Shown: positions 15,282 to 22,787 of the stretch, piece by piece
How positions within the stretch are numbered: the first letter of the stretch is position 1
Layout of the letters: each line of letters begins with the position of its first letter
NCBI RefSeq assembly: GCF_014207965.1
Contig: NZ_JACHLM010000002.1
Coordinates: 1 to 64,000, forward strand
DNA length: 64,000 nt
Reading direction: 5' to 3'
From: Brevundimonas bullata
GTDB lineage: Bacteria; Pseudomonadota; Alphaproteobacteria; Caulobacterales; Caulobacteraceae
Program-made: the position numbers and the translations under genes
The notes under the pieces: model-generated
The model's database searches: none
The model's input: the letters and a program-made list of their open reading frames with translations, nothing else
Told to the model about the DNA's origin: nothing

Positions 15282-16901
15282 ATGCGGTTAAATCAGTATT
15301 CGGCCTTTGGCCTCTGCATCCTCGTTCTAATCGTCGGCGTGGCGTTGGCCCTGTATTATCCGTGGCTGTGGTTTGTGCCCGTGATCGCCGGCGCGCTGGT
15401 CCTGCTGGGCGTCGTCGACCTGATCCAGCCGCAACACTCGATCCGCCGCAACTATCCGGTCCTGGGCCACGTCCGCTGGTTGGCCGAGATGGTCCGACCG
15501 GAAATCCGGCAGTATCTGATTGAGGCCGATCAGGAGGCTGCGCCCTTTTCCCGCAACCAGCGCTCGCTGGTCTATGCCCGGGCCAAGAAGGAAGGTTCGG
15601 AACGATCGTTCGGCACCCAGATGGATGTCTATAGCGTCGGCTATGACTTCATGGGCCATTCGATCCGGCCCGCGCCCGCTGCGGACCCCGCCACCTTCCG
15701 CATCCTGATCGGCGGCGACCAGTGCGCCCAGCCCTACTTGGGCTCGGTTTTCAACATTTCGGCCATGAGCTTCGGTTCGCTCAGCGCCAACGCCATCCGC
15801 GCCCTGAACAAGGGCGCGGCCATGGGCGGGTTCGCCCATGATACGGGAGAGGGCGGCTATAGCCCCCATCACCGCGAAAACGGCGGTGACATCATCTGGG
15901 AGCTGGGCAGCGGCTATTTCGGCTGCCGCACGGAGACCGGGGCCTTCGACCCCGAAAGGTTCGCGGCCCAGGCGGCGAACCCCCAGATCAAGATGATCGA
16001 AATCAAGCTGAGCCAGGGCGCCAAGCCGGGCCACGGCGGGATACTGCCCGCTCAAAAGGTCAGCGCCGAGATCGCGGCCACGCGCGGCGTGCCCATGGGG
16101 CAGGACTGTGTCTCTCCCGCAAGCCACAGCGCCTTTTCGACCCCGCTGCAGATGATGGAATTCATCGCTCGCTTGCGTGAACTGTCGGGCGGCAAGCCGG
16201 TGGGCTTCAAGCTGTGCATCGGCCAGCCGTGGGAGTTCATGGGCATCGTCAAGGCCATGCTGGCGACGGGCATCCGTCCCGACTTCATCGTCGTCGACGG
16301 CGGCGAGGGCGGCACCGGCGCGGCGCCCGTGGAGTTCACCGACCATCTGGGCACGCCGATGCGCGAGGGTCTGCTGTTCGTCCACAATACGCTCGTCGGC
16401 GCCGGCCTGCGCGACCAGATCCGCATCGGCGCGGCCGGCAAGATCACCAGCGCCTTCGACATCGCCAGCGTTCTGGCCATAGGCGCTGACTGGGCCAATG
16501 CCGCGCGCGGCTTCATGTTCGCCCTTGGCTGCGTCCAGTCTCTGAGTTGCGGCACCAACCGCTGCCCCACCGGGGTTGCGACCCAGGACCCCCTGCGCCA
16601 GCGCGCCCTCGTCGTGCCGGACAAGGCCGAGCGGGTGCACCAGTTCCACCGCACCACCCTGAAGGCCTTGTCGGAAATGCTGGCGGCGGCGGGCATCCGC
16701 CACCCCAGCGACCTGCGCCCCCACCATCTGGCGCGTCGCATCAGCCAGACCGAGATCAAGCTGTTTTCACAGCTTCACGTCTTCCTTCGCCCGGGCGAAC
16801 TCCTGACTGGCGAAGAGGGCCGCAGCTTCTATTCCGAGAGCTGGCGCCTGGCCCGGGCCGACCGTTTCGATCTCGAAGAGCCCGCGACAGCGCGGGTCTA
16901 G
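15282..16901 (+). CDS. FMN-binding glutamate synthase-related protein, membrane-anchored
   Basis: 539 residues from ATG 15282 (AGGGA upstream); an earlier TTG at 15222 would add 20 residues. Two N-terminal hydrophobic helices (YSAFGLCILVLIVGVALAL and WLWFVPVIAGALVLLGVV) precede a TIM-barrel like the synthase domain of GltB: FNISAMSFGSLS, HGGILPAQKV, FIVVDGGEGGTGAAP (FMN phosphate loop) and LSCGTNRCPTGVATQDP with Cys residues equivalent to the 3Fe-4S site. There is no glutamine amidotransferase domain. Such stand-alone proteins are widespread and their reaction is not settled. The membrane anchor suggests electron transfer at the inner membrane. Confidence 0.84.
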   Translation: MRLNQYSAFGLCILVLIVGVALALYYPWLWFVPVIAGALVLLGVVDLIQPQHSIRRNYPVLGHVRWLAEMVRPEIRQYLIEADQEAAPFSRNQRSLVYARAKKEGSERSFGTQMDVYSVGYDFMGHSIRPAPAADPATFRILIGGDQCAQPYLGSVFNISAMSFGSLSANAIRALNKGAAMGGFAHDTGEGGYSPHHRENGGDIIWELGSGYFGCRTETGAFDPERFAAQAANPQIKMIEIKLSQGAKPGHGGILPAQKVSAEIAATRGVPMGQDCVSPASHSAFSTPLQMMEFIARLRELSGGKPVGFKLCIGQPWEFMGIVKAMLATGIRPDFIVVDGGEGGTGAAPVEFTDHLGTPMREGLLFVHNTLVGAGLRDQIRIGAAGKITSAFDIASVLAIGADWANAARGFMFALGCVQSLSCGTNRCPTGVATQDPLRQRALVVPDKAERVHQFHRTTLKALSEMLAAAGIRHPSDLRPHHLARRISQTEIKLFSQLHVFLRPGELLTGEEGRSFYSESWRLARADRFDLEEPATARV

Positions 16902-17009
16902 CAGGGCGGCCCCACGGTTTGCCAATCTACGTTCTTGAACGCCGTCCCAACGGGTTGATTTTGGTCTTGGGCATCGGACCGAAACCGTCCTGGAATTTTT
17001 AATGACATA

Positions 17010-17129
17010 AAAAGCGAAATTTGGCGCAACAAGAAAAGCGAAATTTAACGCAGCCAAAAAAGCGAAATATAAAACGACATTAAAAGCGAAATTTGATACA
17101 GCATAAAAAGCGAAAAATAGCGCGTAGCT
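17010..17129. repeat. Five-copy 24-bp tandem repeat array
   Basis: The core AAAAGCGAAATTT begins at 17010, 17034, 17058, 17082 and 17106, exactly 24 bases apart. Copies 1, 2 and 4 match all 13 bases; copy 3 ends TAT and copy 5 AAT. The 11-base intervals are looser (often containing CGCA or CAGC). The array is strongly AT-rich against a GC-rich background and ends about 48 bases before the Fic start. It may be an operator array for the Fic protein's winged-helix region, an RNA of repeated units, or an iteron-like site. Intervals are too short for CRISPR spacers. Confidence 0.9.
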
Positions 17130-17176
17130 TGATTCAGCGATCGAAGCGCACGTTTTGGACGAAGGACGCAGACCCC

Positions 17177-18715
17177 TTGGCCACGCCGCAGGAAAAGCTA
17201 GCTGACGCCCTGGAGGCGCTGCACGCGCTTCAGGAGCAGGGGCGAACCGTCATTCGCACGCAGGATCTCACGCGGGTTCAGCGCGAACGTCTCACCAGGC
17301 AGGGTTTCATCCGCCCGGTCATCAACGGCTGGTACATTCCGGCTCGTCCAGACGAGACTGTTGGAGAAACCACCGCCTGGTATGCCTCCTACTGGGATTT
17401 CGTCAGCGCCTATCTGGAAGACCGCTTTGGAGACGCCTGGTCGCTTTCCCCGGAACAATCCCTGCTGCTGCATGCAGAGCAGTGGAGGGTGCCTGAGCAG
17501 CTTCTGGTCCGGTCTCCACGTGGCCGCGGTCAGGTCACGCAGTTCATTCACGGCTCAAGCGTGTACGATCTCCGCTTGCCGGGGGCTCAGGACCGTGACC
17601 AGACGGTTCTGAGAAACCTGCGGGTCTACAAGGTGGAGGCGGCGCTCATCGCCGCTGGGCCCGGCGTCTACGCAACCCATCCGACGGAGATGAGGACCGT
17701 TCTGGCTGGCCAGCGCGATTTCTCCGCCGTGCTTGAGAGGCTGTTGAACGGGGGGCATTCCGTCATCGCCGGTCGCCTCGCGGGCGCGTGCCGAAATATC
17801 GGCCGTGATGGCGAAGCCGTCGAAATTCTCGAAACCATGCGCGCCGCCGGCTATGATGTCAGGGAGACCGATCCCTTTGCCGGACGATTGCCCGGCTTTG
17901 TCTATCGCCGTGACGAGCCGCCGGCTTCCCGACGGATCAGGTTGATGTGGCAAACCTTGCGGGACGACATACCCGCGCGTTTTCCGGCGCCTGCCCACCA
18001 AGCCGTCGCCCCCAGGGACTATCTCCAGGCGGTGGAGGACCTTTACGTCACCGACGCCTATCATTCGCTCTCGATCGAGGGCTACCGGGTCGATGCGGCC
18101 CTGATCGATCGGGTGCGGCGCGGAGACTGGAATCCCGAGTCAAATGATGAAGACCGTCGGCAACGCGACGCTCTGGCGGCAAGGGGCTACCATGACGCCT
18201 TCCAGGCGGTGAAAGCCAGCGTCGCGCGGGTGCTGGAGGGCCAGAACGCCGGGCGCATCGCCGATGAGGACCATAGAGGCTGGTATCGCCAACTCTTCGG
18301 TCCGAGCGTCACGGCCGGGCTTATTCCTGCCGGCGCGCTCGCCGGTTATCGCAACGGGCCGGTCTATATTCGCGGGTCGCGCCACACGCCGCTGAACCCT
18401 GATGCGGTGAGAGACGCCATGGGGACGCTATTCGAACTGCTCGATGAAGAGGCCGAGCCCAGCGTGCGCGTAGTGCTGGGTCATTTCATCTTCGTCTATA
18501 TTCACCCCTATCTGGACGGGAACGGCCGGATGGGGCGGTTTCTGATGAACCTGATGTTCGCCTCGGGCGGCTATCCGTGGACCGTCATCCCGGTTCAACG
18601 GCGTCAGGCCTATATGGCTGCGCTGGAACAGGCGAGCGTCGATCAGAACATCGGCCCCTTCGCCGACTTTCTCGCGGGTCTGATCGGCGAGACGCCGCCC
18701 GCCGCTCCGGCGTGA
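17177..18715 (+). CDS. Fic-domain protein with N-terminal winged-helix/AbiEi-like region
   Basis: 512 residues from TTG 17177 (AAGGA ten bases upstream); TTG 17129 is an alternative. Residues about 8-60 look like the winged helix of AbiEi-type antitoxins (VIRTQDLTRVQRERLTRQGFI, then GWYIPARPD). A region to about 270 follows, with LSPEQSLLLHAEQ. The Fic domain has H443-PYLDGNGRMGR454, matching HxFx(D/E)GNGRxxR, so nucleotide transfer to a target hydroxyl is expected. S297-LSI-E301-G302 fits the class II inhibitory motif, so the enzyme is probably self-inhibited. It sits between the repeat array and the island integrase. Toxin-antitoxin or phage-defence function is inference. Confidence 0.83.
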   Translation: MATPQEKLADALEALHALQEQGRTVIRTQDLTRVQRERLTRQGFIRPVINGWYIPARPDETVGETTAWYASYWDFVSAYLEDRFGDAWSLSPEQSLLLHAEQWRVPEQLLVRSPRGRGQVTQFIHGSSVYDLRLPGAQDRDQTVLRNLRVYKVEAALIAAGPGVYATHPTEMRTVLAGQRDFSAVLERLLNGGHSVIAGRLAGACRNIGRDGEAVEILETMRAAGYDVRETDPFAGRLPGFVYRRDEPPASRRIRLMWQTLRDDIPARFPAPAHQAVAPRDYLQAVEDLYVTDAYHSLSIEGYRVDAALIDRVRRGDWNPESNDEDRRQRDALAARGYHDAFQAVKASVARVLEGQNAGRIADEDHRGWYRQLFGPSVTAGLIPAGALAGYRNGPVYIRGSRHTPLNPDAVRDAMGTLFELLDEEAEPSVRVVLGHFIFVYIHPYLDGNGRMGRFLMNLMFASGGYPWTVIPVQRRQAYMAALEQASVDQNIGPFADFLAGLIGETPPAAPA

Positions 18716-18820: not shown

Positions 18821-20158
18821 TCAGCCAGGAGAGCTTGGTGCATTCAGAGGCTGCTTGGCCACGATCTCACCGACTAACACGCTCCATGCTGCCAGCGCTG
18901 ATCGCTTCTCCGCCATGAAATCATAGAGGGCGTAGGTCGACAGGGTGACGGCGGCGGCTCCGCCCTTTTCGCTCGTGTGATTGAGGATTCGACCGATGAC
19001 GAAAGGTGAGATCCGCAGGCGTTCGCTCGCCATGCTGGTCGCCGCCGTGCGTCTCAGGTCATGCGGGGTCAGGGCGGGCAACGAAAGAGCGCTTCTCACA
19101 TCGCGCAGGGCGCGGCTCAATGCGGCGGGCGTCAGGGATTTCTCACGGTCCCAGCGGGCAGGGAAGATAAACTGCGTGGGTTCGTTGACGAGGCTCATGG
19201 CCTCCCGAATGAGCGCCACGGCCCCCGGCGACAGCGGCACCAGCGTAGGTCGGCCGTTCTTGGTTCTCGATCCCGGTATGGTCCAGACCGCCTGTTCGAG
19301 GTCGACCTCCGCTCGGGTCATGCATGCGACCTCGTGGCGGCGTTGCAGGGTGAGCAGCAGCAGCTTGATCGCAATGCCGACCGGACGGCTGACGTAGACG
19401 CGCTGGTTCTTGCGACGTGCGCTTTTCGCGCACGTCAGCGCAGTGGGGTCATCCAAGGCTCGCCAGATCGCGCCGATCTCCGCATCGCGCAATACGCGTT
19501 CACGAGGGGACTCGTCACCCAGGGCCGGCACTCTTGCGACAGGGTTCGCGGTTACGGCTTCGGCCTCGAGGATCGCGTAGTTGAACATCTGACGGATCTG
19601 GGCGCGGACTCGATTGGAGCTCGTGTCCTGGCCCTTTGTGATCAGCGCGCGCAGGAGCGTCTTGATCGCGGCTGGAGTGACGTCCTCAAGGCGAAGCGAC
19701 CCCAGGGCCGGCTCTATGTGCTTGGTCCAAAGCCATTTCTCGCCAGCGATCGTGGACGCCCGCTTGCGCTTTCCGCGCGGCTTCCATTCGCCGCGCTCGG
19801 TGGCCTCGAAATAGGCGAGGCTGAGGTCCCGAAATGTCTTGATGGTTTGGGAGCGGCGCTCGACCTTCTTGCGGCGCTTCTCTCCTGCGGGATCCACCCC
19901 ATCCAAGGCCTGAAGGCGAGCTTGAGCGCAGCGTTTTCGGGCATCGGCGAGCGAAAGGTCGGGGTAGAGGCCCAGACTGAAGCGGCGCTCGTCGCCGTCT
20001 TCCGTCCGGTAGCGGATCGCCCAGGTTTTTCTCCCCGTCTCGCTGACTCTCAGCATGAGACCCGCGCCAATCGGGTTTTCATCATAGATCTCAATGCGTG
20101 CCCTGGCCGGCGCGACGACCGAAGCGACGAACTTGTCTGTCAATCTGACTTTGGGCAT
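18821..20158 (-). CDS. Tyrosine recombinase/integrase, P4 type
   Basis: 445 residues starting at ATG 20158 (MPKVRLTDKF). An N-terminal DUF4102-type arm-binding domain (GLMLRVSETGRKTWAIRYR, LGLYPDLSLADAR) is followed by a core-binding SAM-like domain and the catalytic domain: Arg in LTLQRRHEVACMTRAE, H366-x-x-R369 in TPHDLRRTA, His394 in LNHTSE and a nucleophile Tyr near 409 (LSTYALY). All active-site residues are present, so it may be functional. Such integrases recombine at tRNA 3' ends; the tRNA-Lys fragment lies about 175 bases upstream of its start. Confidence 0.92.
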   Translation of the reverse strand: MPKVRLTDKFVASVVAPARARIEIYDENPIGAGLMLRVSETGRKTWAIRYRTEDGDERRFSLGLYPDLSLADARKRCAQARLQALDGVDPAGEKRRKKVERRSQTIKTFRDLSLAYFEATERGEWKPRGKRKRASTIAGEKWLWTKHIEPALGSLRLEDVTPAAIKTLLRALITKGQDTSSNRVRAQIRQMFNYAILEAEAVTANPVARVPALGDESPRERVLRDAEIGAIWRALDDPTALTCAKSARRKNQRVYVSRPVGIAIKLLLLTLQRRHEVACMTRAEVDLEQAVWTIPGSRTKNGRPTLVPLSPGAVALIREAMSLVNEPTQFIFPARWDREKSLTPAALSRALRDVRSALSLPALTPHDLRRTAATSMASERLRISPFVIGRILNHTSEKGGAAAVTLSTYALYDFMAEKRSALAAWSVLVGEIVAKQPLNAPSSPG

Positions 20159-20333
20159 CCGACGAGTATGCCAGATTTGTCTGTGTCCCAAAGCGATTTG
20201 GGACACATATGGGACACAGAAAGCAGAAGCAGCCTGAACACCCCTGACGATATTTGAATTTGAAAATCTAATAAAAACAGTGAGTAATGGATTCTCGTGA
20301 AATGGCCTGAAACCCAATGAAATCAATATTTCG

Positions 20334-20383: not shown

Positions 20384-20569
20384 TCTTCCCCTTATAATTT
20401 ATCCCGGTTTCCAGGCGTCTTCAGTCCGATTCGGACGGGTCGTCCTGAGGCTTGGTTGCGGCGGCGCGTCGACTTTGCGGCGTTTTCGACCTGCGAACTC
20501 CGGCAAGGGGGCATTCGCACGCCGCAGCGGCAGATCACCGGGCGCCTCGCCCTGGTGGCGCGCTTCTGG

Positions 20570-21259
20570 TCAGACGGCGACGTCGAAGAGGCGGCCCACC
20601 CCGGCGGTGATGGCCATGGCCAGGGCGCCCCAGAAGACGACCCGCACGACAGATCGGCCCATGGGCGCGCCGCCTGCCCTGGCGCCCAGGGCGCCCAGTG
20701 CGGCCAGACCGGCCAGAGCCGAACCGGCGACCCAGACGACCAGTCCCGACATGGGAGCGACGGCCGCCACGACCAGCGGCAGGGCGGCGCCGGCCGAGAA
20801 GGTGACGGCGGAGGTGAGCGCCGCCTGGATCGGACGCGCAGTGGTGATCTCGGAGATGCCCAGCTCATCCCTGGCATGGGCGCCCAGGGCGTCGTGGCTC
20901 ATCATCTGTTGAGCCACTTCGGCGGCCAGGTCGGGCGCCACGCCGCGCCCGACATAGATGCCGGCCAGTTCGCGCAACTCGGCCTCGTGGTCGCCCGCCA
21001 GTTCGGAAGTTTCACGCGCGAGGTCAGCCTTCTCGGTGTCCGACTGGGAACTGACCGAGACATATTCGCCCGCCGCCATCGACATGGCGCCGGCCGCCAG
21101 TCCGGCGACGCCCGCGATCAGGACGCTGCTGTGGCCGGTTGAGGCCGCCGCGACGCCGACGACCAGGCTGGCGGTCGAGACCAGACCGTCGTTGGCGCCG
21201 AGCACGGCGGCGCGCAGCCAGCCGATGCGATCAACACGGTGAGCTTCTCGGTGGACCAT
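20570..21259 (-). CDS. VIT1/CCC1-family membrane transporter
   Basis: 229 residues from ATG 21259 with GAGG upstream. The family signature GANDGLVSTASLVVGVAAA is near the N-terminus, followed by GVAGLAAGAMSMAAGEYVSVSSQSDTE, a charged cytoplasmic segment (about 80-150) and three C-terminal membrane helices, five segments in all. VIT1/CCC1 proteins move Fe(II) or Mn(II) out of the cytosol; in bacteria the exact metal is often unknown. Beyond the island's right edge, first clear gene of the core region. Confidence 0.87.
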   Translation of the reverse strand: MVHREAHRVDRIGWLRAAVLGANDGLVSTASLVVGVAAASTGHSSVLIAGVAGLAAGAMSMAAGEYVSVSSQSDTEKADLARETSELAGDHEAELRELAGIYVGRGVAPDLAAEVAQQMMSHDALGAHARDELGISEITTARPIQAALTSAVTFSAGAALPLVVAAVAPMSGLVVWVAGSALAGLAALGALGARAGGAPMGRSVVRVVFWGALAMAITAGVGRLFDVAV

Positions 21260-21334
21260 CGCCCTCTTCTCCTGACCCATGGGCGAGAAGACGCTCGATA
21301 TGTCGAAGAGACAAGGGGCGACGCCTGGACAGCG

Positions 21335-21505
21335 TCAGGTCCGGGGTGGGCGGACGGCCTGATCCAGCCGGGCGGCCTCTTCGCGATAGCGCTCTGCGAT
21401 CCTTTGAAATCGATCGCGGTCAGCGGGAAAGGGCGTAAGGCGGGCCATGTTCAGAGCGTTCTGCTGGAGCGCTCTCAAGGCGGCCAGGTGATCGTGGGAG
21501 CGCAT
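21335..21505 (-). CDS. Small hypothetical protein
   Basis: 56 residues, start ATG 21505 (MRSHDHLAALRALQQN). All-helical, rich in Ala, Arg and Glu, with ADRDRFQRIAERYREEAARLDQ. Small proteins of this kind, with a repeated D-R-x-R helix, are common in alphaproteobacteria near stress genes. No function can be assigned. It lies 76 bases upstream of the VIT gene on the same strand. Confidence 0.45.
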   Translation of the reverse strand: MRSHDHLAALRALQQNALNMARLTPFPADRDRFQRIAERYREEAARLDQAVRPPRT

Positions 21506-21740
21506 CAATGCCAATCTGCTAGGGAACGTCGCGTTTGAGGGGCGGGAAGAAAACGACCTTCGACGTCTCCTGGCCCTTGAAGCGGCGCTGACTGCGGTTG
21601 GTTCCGTTCGGTCACGCTTGGGCCAGGACAACTCCACGGCTGGAGACCGGTCTAGCGATCCCTTCAAGGCTGCTGCGCGGTCCCGTCGCGCGAATATTTC
21701 TTTTCAACTGCGTCGAACAACCATTGATCCTGGAGGTTGC

Positions 21741-21917
21741 GTGTGGATGTGCAAGGCCTGCGACGAACACCAGGGAGAGGTCGTCCGCTTCCGCAGGCTG
21801 AGAGGGCTTGTGGCGGATGATCGCGCCAGGGCCGCGCTCTTCGCCCTCATCGCTGAACATGAAGCTGCGATCCTGCAGCTTCACCCTCAGGCGTCCGAGG
21901 CGATCCCTGATCGTTGA
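21741..21917 (+). CDS. Possible small hypothetical protein
   Basis: 58 residues from GTG 21741, with a strong GGAGG at 21732-21736 four bases upstream (ATG 21747 also fits). The N-terminus has a CKAC pair followed by a helical, charged stretch (DDRARAALFALIAEHEAAILQLH). Composition looks protein-like, but no family is recognised. Supported mainly by the ribosome-binding site. Confidence 0.4.
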   Translation: MWMCKACDEHQGEVVRFRRLRGLVADDRARAALFALIAEHEAAILQLHPQASEAIPDR

Positions 21918-22051
21918 GGGCGATCGGGACGCCCCTGCCGCCCTCGCCCGGAACAGGCAGGGTTTGAATGGAGGTCTCAGGTGATTTCCGATTGTGCGGC
22001 CGAGGGTGTAGGTTGCGCAAACGTCGTTCTTCAAGGGTGGAGGCAGGCAAG

Positions 22052-22729
22052 ATGGATAGGTCCAGGAGCAGTTCGGCGTCTGCAGGACCGCTGTCGCGTC
22101 GGCATATGCTCATCGCCGCAGGGGCGGGGGCAGCTGCATTCGCTGCGGGTCGAGCCTATGGTCGGCCGCAGGCGACAGGTCAGCCGGTGCTTTTCACCAA
22201 TCTTCGTCTCTTCGACGGCGTTACGGCTCGGTTGCACGGCGGTCGCAGCGTGCTGGTCGAAGGCGGCAGGATCACTGCGGTGCTGAGCGGCGCCGACCGT
22301 CCGATCGAAGGCGTCCAGATCATCGACTGCGGCGGCCGGACCTTGATGCCCGGGCTGATCGACGCCCACTGGCATTCGATGCTGTGCGCCATGTCGATGA
22401 TGGAGCTGATGACCGCCGATCTGGGTCTGATCACCCTGGCGGCGACGAAGAACCAGGGCGCCATCCTGGCCCAGATGACGCGCTGGTATTCCAGCGGCGA
22501 GGTCCTGCTCATGGCGACGGGCCGGAACGCCGAGCTCCTGGCCCTTTCGGGCGAACGCAATCCCTATCCGGGCAAGCTCGGGGTCATCGAAGCCGGGGCC
22601 TACGCCGATCTCCTGATCGTCGATGGCGATCCCCTGACCAACATCGCCCTGGTGGCGGACCCGGAAGCCAATCTGCGGCTGATCATGAAGGGCGGGCGCA
22701 TCTACAAGAACGCGCTTCAGTCGGGCTGA
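22052..22729 (+). CDS. Amidohydrolase-family protein with catalytic core deleted
   Basis: 225 residues from ATG 22052 (GGAGG eight bases upstream). A twin-arginine signal (SRRHMLIAAGAGAAAFAAG) leads into the amidohydrolase N-terminus with the first metal motif H106-W-H108 in GLIDAHWHS. By about residue 135 the sequence jumps to the C-terminal part: MTRWYSSGEVLLMATGRNA, GKLGVIEAGAYADLLIVDGDPL, IMKGGRIYKN. Family members are about 430-480 residues, so roughly 230 central residues, with the remaining metal ligands, are gone in frame. Probably inactive, though reading frame, start and export signal are intact. A periplasmic location is predicted. Confidence 0.72.
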   Translation: MDRSRSSSASAGPLSRRHMLIAAGAGAAAFAAGRAYGRPQATGQPVLFTNLRLFDGVTARLHGGRSVLVEGGRITAVLSGADRPIEGVQIIDCGGRTLMPGLIDAHWHSMLCAMSMMELMTADLGLITLAATKNQGAILAQMTRWYSSGEVLLMATGRNAELLALSGERNPYPGKLGVIEAGAYADLLIVDGDPLTNIALVADPEANLRLIMKGGRIYKNALQSG

Positions 22730-22787
22730 GGACAGCGGCGGGCCGCATCAGCCTTCACCATCGCGGCGCGTCGTGGTCTAAGGCCGG

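Follow-up and report, generated by a model that had tools for sequence, protein, structure and literature searches.

The locus lies in a 64,000-nucleotide stretch of a Brevundimonas bullata contig (NZ_JACHLM010000002.1, positions 1 to 64,000; hereafter the window), where a fic gene is preceded by an array of direct repeats and followed by an integrase gene. The features are listed below in window coordinates.

17003-17122 (+), operator-like array of five 24-bp direct repeats, with units at 17003, 17027, 17051, 17075 and 17099
17074-17102 (+), candidate promoter ACGACA-17-TACAGC, placed by the array phase seen in homologues
17177-18715 (+), fic gene, 512 residues counted from TTG 17177
17186-17341 (+), predicted winged-helix part, residues 4-55, from AlphaFold models and structure matches
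17375-17800 (+), predicted nucleotidyltransferase-like part of the N-terminal head, residues 67-208, from AlphaFold and structure matches
17423-17428 (+), codons of residues 83-84 (R-F), showing weak covariation with unit position 14
17525-17533 (+), codons of residues 117-119 (R-G-Q), in a loop covarying with unit position 12
18065-18082 (+), class II inhibitory motif S297-LSI-E301-G302, with a sub-threshold Pfam VbhA antitoxin match over the same site
18503-18538 (+), Fic catalytic motif H443-PYLDGNGRMGR, from the motif and Pfam
18821-20326 (-), tyrosine integrase with an Arm-DNA-binding domain, just downstream of the fic gene and facing it

The first-pass annotation, made from the letters of the window, had described the repeats as exactly periodic and AT-rich; all five array units are indeed spaced by exactly 24 bp, and the G+C content of the array is 0.33 compared with 0.66 for the window. 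The two highest Tandem Repeats Finder scores in the window (103 and 124, with other rows at most 54) belong to the array, and its self-match was reached by none of 1000 block shuffles. The same annotation counted five copies of a 13-base core; there are indeed five, but only those at 17010, 17034 and 17082 follow the quoted core letter for letter, the copies at 17058 and 17106 carrying one and two mismatches, respectively. Allowing one mismatch, the core occurs five times in the 3.69-Mb genome, four of them inside the window array, and a reversed-pattern control found no match in the genome. Between the last unit and the TTG at 17177 lie 54 bases, in line with the earlier estimate of about 50.

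TTG 17177 is the most likely start codon of the gene, because the alignments of homologues begin at the codon right after it and the codon preceding the alignment start is ATG, GTG or TTG in 74 of 81 rows. A longer open reading frame from TTG 17093 was also considered as the gene and is disfavoured by where the homologues begin to align. Two loci (L065 and L107) with one stop inside were left out of alignment A1, and no row of the alignment has a stop before residue 480. The Pfam Fic match scores 50.2 bits against a cut-off of 24, and the catalytic motif is of the HxFx(D/E)GNGRxxR type with Y in place of F in the window protein; HPxxDGNGRxxR is kept in 79 of 81 rows and in 148 of all 151. N-terminal to it in the same chain is an [S/T]xxxE[G/N] inhibitory motif, the arrangement by which excerpts of PMC9755527 define class II Fic proteins. 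This SLSIEG sequence is kept in 80 of 81 rows and in 145 of all 151, and the Pfam VbhA antitoxin match across it reaches 14.3 bits, below the cut-off of 25.9. Both motifs that had been read from the window are thus present in one protein, and the conservation of the second is consistent with the proposed internal inhibitor.

Homologues were drawn from the best 80 of 321 relatives in GTDB genomes, together with a paralogue and family-level homologues, and the resulting 91 loci were reduced to 85 non-redundant ones by removing copies (L011, L014-L017 and L040). Their sources include Pseudomonadota, Acidobacteria, Bacteroidetes and one Chloroflexi bin, many of them being metagenome bins. In the 250 bases upstream of the gene, the strongest period was 23, 24, 47 or 48 in 84 of the 85 loci, compared with 5/85 for within-gene stretches and 2/85 for shuffled upstream DNA. 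Loci collected later from other genomes, plasmids and viral contigs behaved alike (53/56; gene control 2/56); the three that lack the period are L166, L177 and L192, yet the profile finds two units each in L166 and L177. The arrays hold three to six units. These data confirm that the repeat array before the Fic gene is real and more general than was known from the window, and the search for the fusion with its repeats in other genomes, which had been named as a check, found the upstream repeats in homologues. Ten distant relatives (L137-L140, L153, L169-L171, L173 and L174) have 23- or 24-bp arrays with motifs that differ by eye, for example AACAAAGTAAATTT, AATTAGTG and TGATAA.

In the B. bullata genome itself there is one paralogue of full length, at 71% identity, besides two weak matches that are confined to the Fic part. 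The paralogue (L002 1501-3030; G000:C3:572631-574160) has its own 24-bp array, whose core reads AGCGGGA where that of the window array reads AGCGAAA. A genome search for the paralogue core with at most one mismatch gave five sites, four of which lie in the paralogue's array, and the reversed-pattern control gave two. Near the paralogue are a serine-recombinase-like and a phospholipase-D-like open reading frame, both named by eye.

Comparison of 355 units from the 85 arrays showed that two positions of the unit are far more alike within arrays than between them. Identity at position 12 was 0.92 within and 0.38 between arrays, and at position 14 it was 0.85 and 0.50; the within-array excess was smaller at positions 16 and 17 (0.16 and 0.19) and at most 0.05 in the spacer (positions 1-6 and 18-24). 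The near-zero excess in the spacer indicates that the arrays are not young copies, and the in-step behaviour of position 12, and partly of position 14, is therefore explained by a common reader rather than by young duplication.

The first-pass annotation had likened the N-terminal region to the DNA-binding antitoxin AbiEi, a likeness that appears in the predicted structure and is missing from Pfam and other sequence-profile matches. AlphaFold modelled the whole protein with a mean pLDDT of 92.5 and residues 1-236 with 95.0. The structure of Rv2827c was first in the list of matches to this head (Z 10.3, 211 aligned residues, rmsd 4.5), followed by AbiEi of Streptococcus agalactiae (Z 8.6, 164 aligned, rmsd 5.2), which Foldseek also matched with an E value of 1.1e-4. 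Residues 67-208 also resemble nucleotidyltransferases, the toxin MenT1 (Z 7.7) being tied with AbiEi (Z 8.6) on that scale. At the sequence level, the AbiEi family was absent from the Pfam matches of 63 family members at E values up to 1, and a PDB profile search found no AbiEi chain. The predicted fold combines a winged helix with a nucleotidyltransferase-like domain, as in the AbiEi/Rv2827c antitoxins, and the models support an AbiEi/Rv2827c-like fold for residues 1-236, which is a match of fold and no proof of kinship. Structure prediction had been proposed as a check on this region, and the fold obtained is not the unrelated one that would have spoken against the likeness.

When 9,744 residue-by-position pairs were scanned without guidance, residue 117 and unit position 12 came first, with an APC score of 0.71 and the next pair at 0.29. 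Likewise, residue 117 was the best predictor of position 12 in the 80 training rows, giving corrected information of 0.95 of 1.42 bits (next, 0.36). In these rows Arg117 occurs with G in 40 of 41 cases, Gly117 with C in 15 of 17 and other residues with A in 18 of 22. On a tree from which the tested residues had been left out, parsimony requires at least 22 changes of the base at position 12, and among path-disjoint pairs residue 117 differs in 17 of 19 with a base switch versus 9 of 31 with the same base (Fisher p 3e-5). In the phylogeny-controlled pairs residue 117 was the best of all columns and residue 119 the second. When training and test rows were pooled into 117 non-redundant pairs, Arg117 went with G in 46 of 47; the pairs without Arg117 had C in 22 of 24 cases of Lys119 and A in 27 of 31 cases of Asn119.

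A rule that predicts position 12 from residue 117 (rule 1) was fixed before 50 new loci were looked at, of which 11 were near-duplicates, 14 were without a sufficient two-unit array by the profile and 25 were counted. Rule 1 was right for 17 of these arrays and missed 8 (permutation p 0.0016; guessing the commonest base, 12 right). The errors pointed to residue 119, and two revised rules (rules 2 and 3) were written after this first test and before a further 20 loci, from which 3 near-duplicates and 6 loci without a found array were set aside and 11 counted. In this second test rule 1 was right for 10 of 11 (p 0.0019) and rules 2 and 3 for 11 of 11 each (p 0.0004), with 7 for the commonest base, so the clean test of the two-residue rules is small, at 11 arrays, of which 7 belong to one class (C). 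On the training rows, rule 2 falls below rule 1 (69 versus 73 of 80). Arg117 was found with G in 4 of 4 and then 2 of 2 cases at the new loci. Altogether 36 of the 70 new loci were counted, 14 being near-duplicates and 20 having fewer than two profile-found units or a low array score; those 20 are mostly distant relatives with other motifs.

Position 14 follows a weaker pattern. The pairs 84/14 and 83/14 were the runners-up of the scan with APC scores of 0.29 at best, nearly equalled by residue 437 of the Fic half with position 15 (0.27), which is an unlikely contact. Lys84 occurs with G at position 14 in 21 of 21 cases, and under phylogenetic control residue 84 differs in 5 of 14 switch pairs versus 2 of 35 same-base pairs. 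The window protein, with R-F at residues 83-84 and G at position 14, is an exception, and the covariation at this position suggests a trend only. For position 12, the conservation of the array and the residue-base covariation together support the earlier suggestion of a repressor that reads its own array, and point to the Fic protein itself as the probable reader.

Sigma-70-like hexamers with at least 9 of 12 consensus matches occur at one array phase in 41 of 85 arrays and at any other phase in at most 9 of 85, a preference to which the CRRCA letters of the unit itself contribute. The candidate promoter in the window has only 7 of 12 consensus matches, so the promoter-like match is weak in the B. 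bullata genome.

We propose, with a probability of about 0.8 and from sequence comparison, that the locus is a one-gene class II Fic module that represses itself through its AbiEi-like head and whose operator code is still evolving. In this module a Fic (AMP-transferase) domain would be silenced by its own SxxxEG helix and sit behind the two-domain head, with one head bound per 24-bp unit. The three to six tandem units would overlap the promoter of the gene, and the protein bound there is proposed to repress its own synthesis. Recognition of the constant part of the unit probably falls to the winged helix, and a loop in the nucleotidyltransferase-like half (residues 112-121) may read the variable base at position 12, with Arg117 calling for G and, where Arg117 is missing, Lys119 mostly for C and Asn119 mostly for A. 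Operator and reader would have switched together many times, given the number of base changes at position 12, and such switched pairs would stop paralogues and mobile copies from controlling one another. As long as inhibition lasts, the Fic half is probably inactive; if repression or auto-inhibition were lost, it would modify a cellular target and halt growth.

The family was found in 14 of 398 genomes at E values up to 1e-60, in a phylum-wide sample that leans towards relatives. Plasmid records with relatives number 79, and 42 of these plasmids are predicted to be conjugative, while 50,697 phage records gave no match at E 1e-20; nine IMG/VR contigs carry relatives, several of them distant and with arrays of other motifs by eye. 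Neighbouring genes vary, and conjugation, recombinase or toxin-antitoxin genes appear in several of 21 plasmid regions, one of which is unannotated. On an Aminobacter plasmid (L162 2601-3722) a second, shorter Fic gene lies directly upstream of the family member, and on a Variovorax plasmid (L167 1-1166 and 3971-5590) another Fic gene and a HipA-domain gene lie just upstream. In two genomes related to that of the window, homology across the upstream neighbour stops at base 16901, at the stop codon of that gene, or before this point, which gives the locus an accessory look. An ARAGORN scan of the window for tRNA genes was negative. The earlier view of an integrase island is borne out as to the integrase gene directly downstream and the accessory look of the locus, the extent of the island being putative. 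The match of another B. bullata contig (L040) to the window breaks off after 20393 and resumes at 22750, the stretch 20394-22749 being missing or different there.

The array could also act as the antitoxin itself. In one form of this idea, which we hold to be unlikely, the AbiEi-type head would clamp the Fic domain on its own array and the nearly one-residue code would tie each copy to its own DNA, so that when this DNA is lost or destroyed the enzyme would be released and the cell would stop. A related and quite unlikely form makes the array a DNA antitoxin and a sensor at once, with the Fic domain inactive as long as the head occupies the repeats and an active enzyme freed by loss or degradation of the DNA, as in plasmid loss or phage attack. 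Such a role would suit arrays with more units than one promoter seems to need, the many relatives on plasmid records, over half of them predicted conjugative, and the patchy, accessory nature of the locus. The near-invariance of SLSIEG speaks against it, since silencing need not depend on DNA where the inhibitory motif is kept in all rows but one.

Contact between the Fic protein and the array is deduced from comparing sequences. We consider it highly unlikely that another regulator binds the repeats and that the Fic protein just happens to sit behind them, as a residue of the Fic protein tracks the variable base with phylogeny controlled and the array accompanies the gene in distant bacteria. 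The first-pass annotation offered a further alternative by analogy with type III systems, namely that transcription of the array yields a repeat RNA; in type III toxin-antitoxin logic such an RNA would neutralise the protein. Tandem repeats directly upstream of a toxin-like gene invite that comparison, which is disfavoured by the promoter-like hexamers at a fixed phase inside the array, by conserved and variable positions that fit a DNA-reading protein fold, and by the covariation with the protein, and we regard it as extremely unlikely. The chance that the arrays are young duplications without a regulatory role, arising by slippage or as recombination sites of mobile elements, seems close to negligible: mobile-gene neighbours in the window and in several plasmid regions would agree with it, but the low spacer excess marks the arrays as old and the period is kept in distant homologues.

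Under the preferred reading of a self-repressing Fic module, the family is a candidate one-gene toxin-antitoxin or defence unit. Its 117 matched reader/operator pairs, with near-copies removed, form a natural set for an AbiEi-type residue-to-base code, in which the variable contact appears, from covariation and the predicted fold, to point to the nucleotidyltransferase-like half and not to the winged helix.

This Fic family with built-in control is named by none of the libraries used (Pfam, NCBIfam and PADLOC). The nearest entry concerns SoFic of Shewanella, whose PADLOC model fits the Fic part (69.8 bits, residues 287-501) but leaves the N-terminal head uncovered, and the NCBIfam match to SoFic scores 29.9 bits against a cut-off of 550. 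The Fic core resembles that of FICD and bacterial Fic structures (6i7k, 3cuc and 4x2d) in sequence and fold, although Foldseek covers only part of the window protein with them (TM by query length 0.35-0.37). Among 40 of 79 plasmid rows, seven of which lack a feature or annotation, the head was not found fused to another effector, the features being Fic family and one 'hypothetical protein'. In the titles and abstract openings of open PMC papers, among the matches listed, neither a fusion of AbiEi with Fic nor a repeat array preceding a Fic gene was seen.

According to excerpts of PMC3985639 and PMC7319586, the promoters that AbiEi-type antitoxins repress are their own and contain 23-bp repeats to which these proteins bind; both domains take part. 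The protein described here is similar to the type IV AbiE antitoxins AbiEi (S. agalactiae) and Rv2827c in its predicted two-domain fold. Those antitoxins come with a separate AbiEii-type toxin gene and 23-bp inverted promoter repeats, whereas in the present family head and Fic domain form one chain, and the three to six units are direct repeats 23-24 bp apart. An AbiEii-type nucleotidyltransferase partner did not recur in the 20 annotated of 21 plasmid regions, whose gene table is incomplete; at L167 alone a DUF6036 nucleotidyltransferase lies about 3.5 kb away. To the eye, the published abiE half-sites bore a plausible likeness to the unit, but a shuffle test did not bear it out (p 0.997 and 0.93). 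Excerpts of PMC9755527 state that HTH-bearing Fic proteins are widespread and also describe CccR of Yersinia pseudotuberculosis. Like the proposed module, CccR belongs to the class II Fic proteins, has a DNA-binding domain of its own and represses the promoter of its own gene; it differs in carrying a C-terminal HTH, in using an operator of two 10-bp inverted repeats 26 bp apart and in being secreted by a T6SS.
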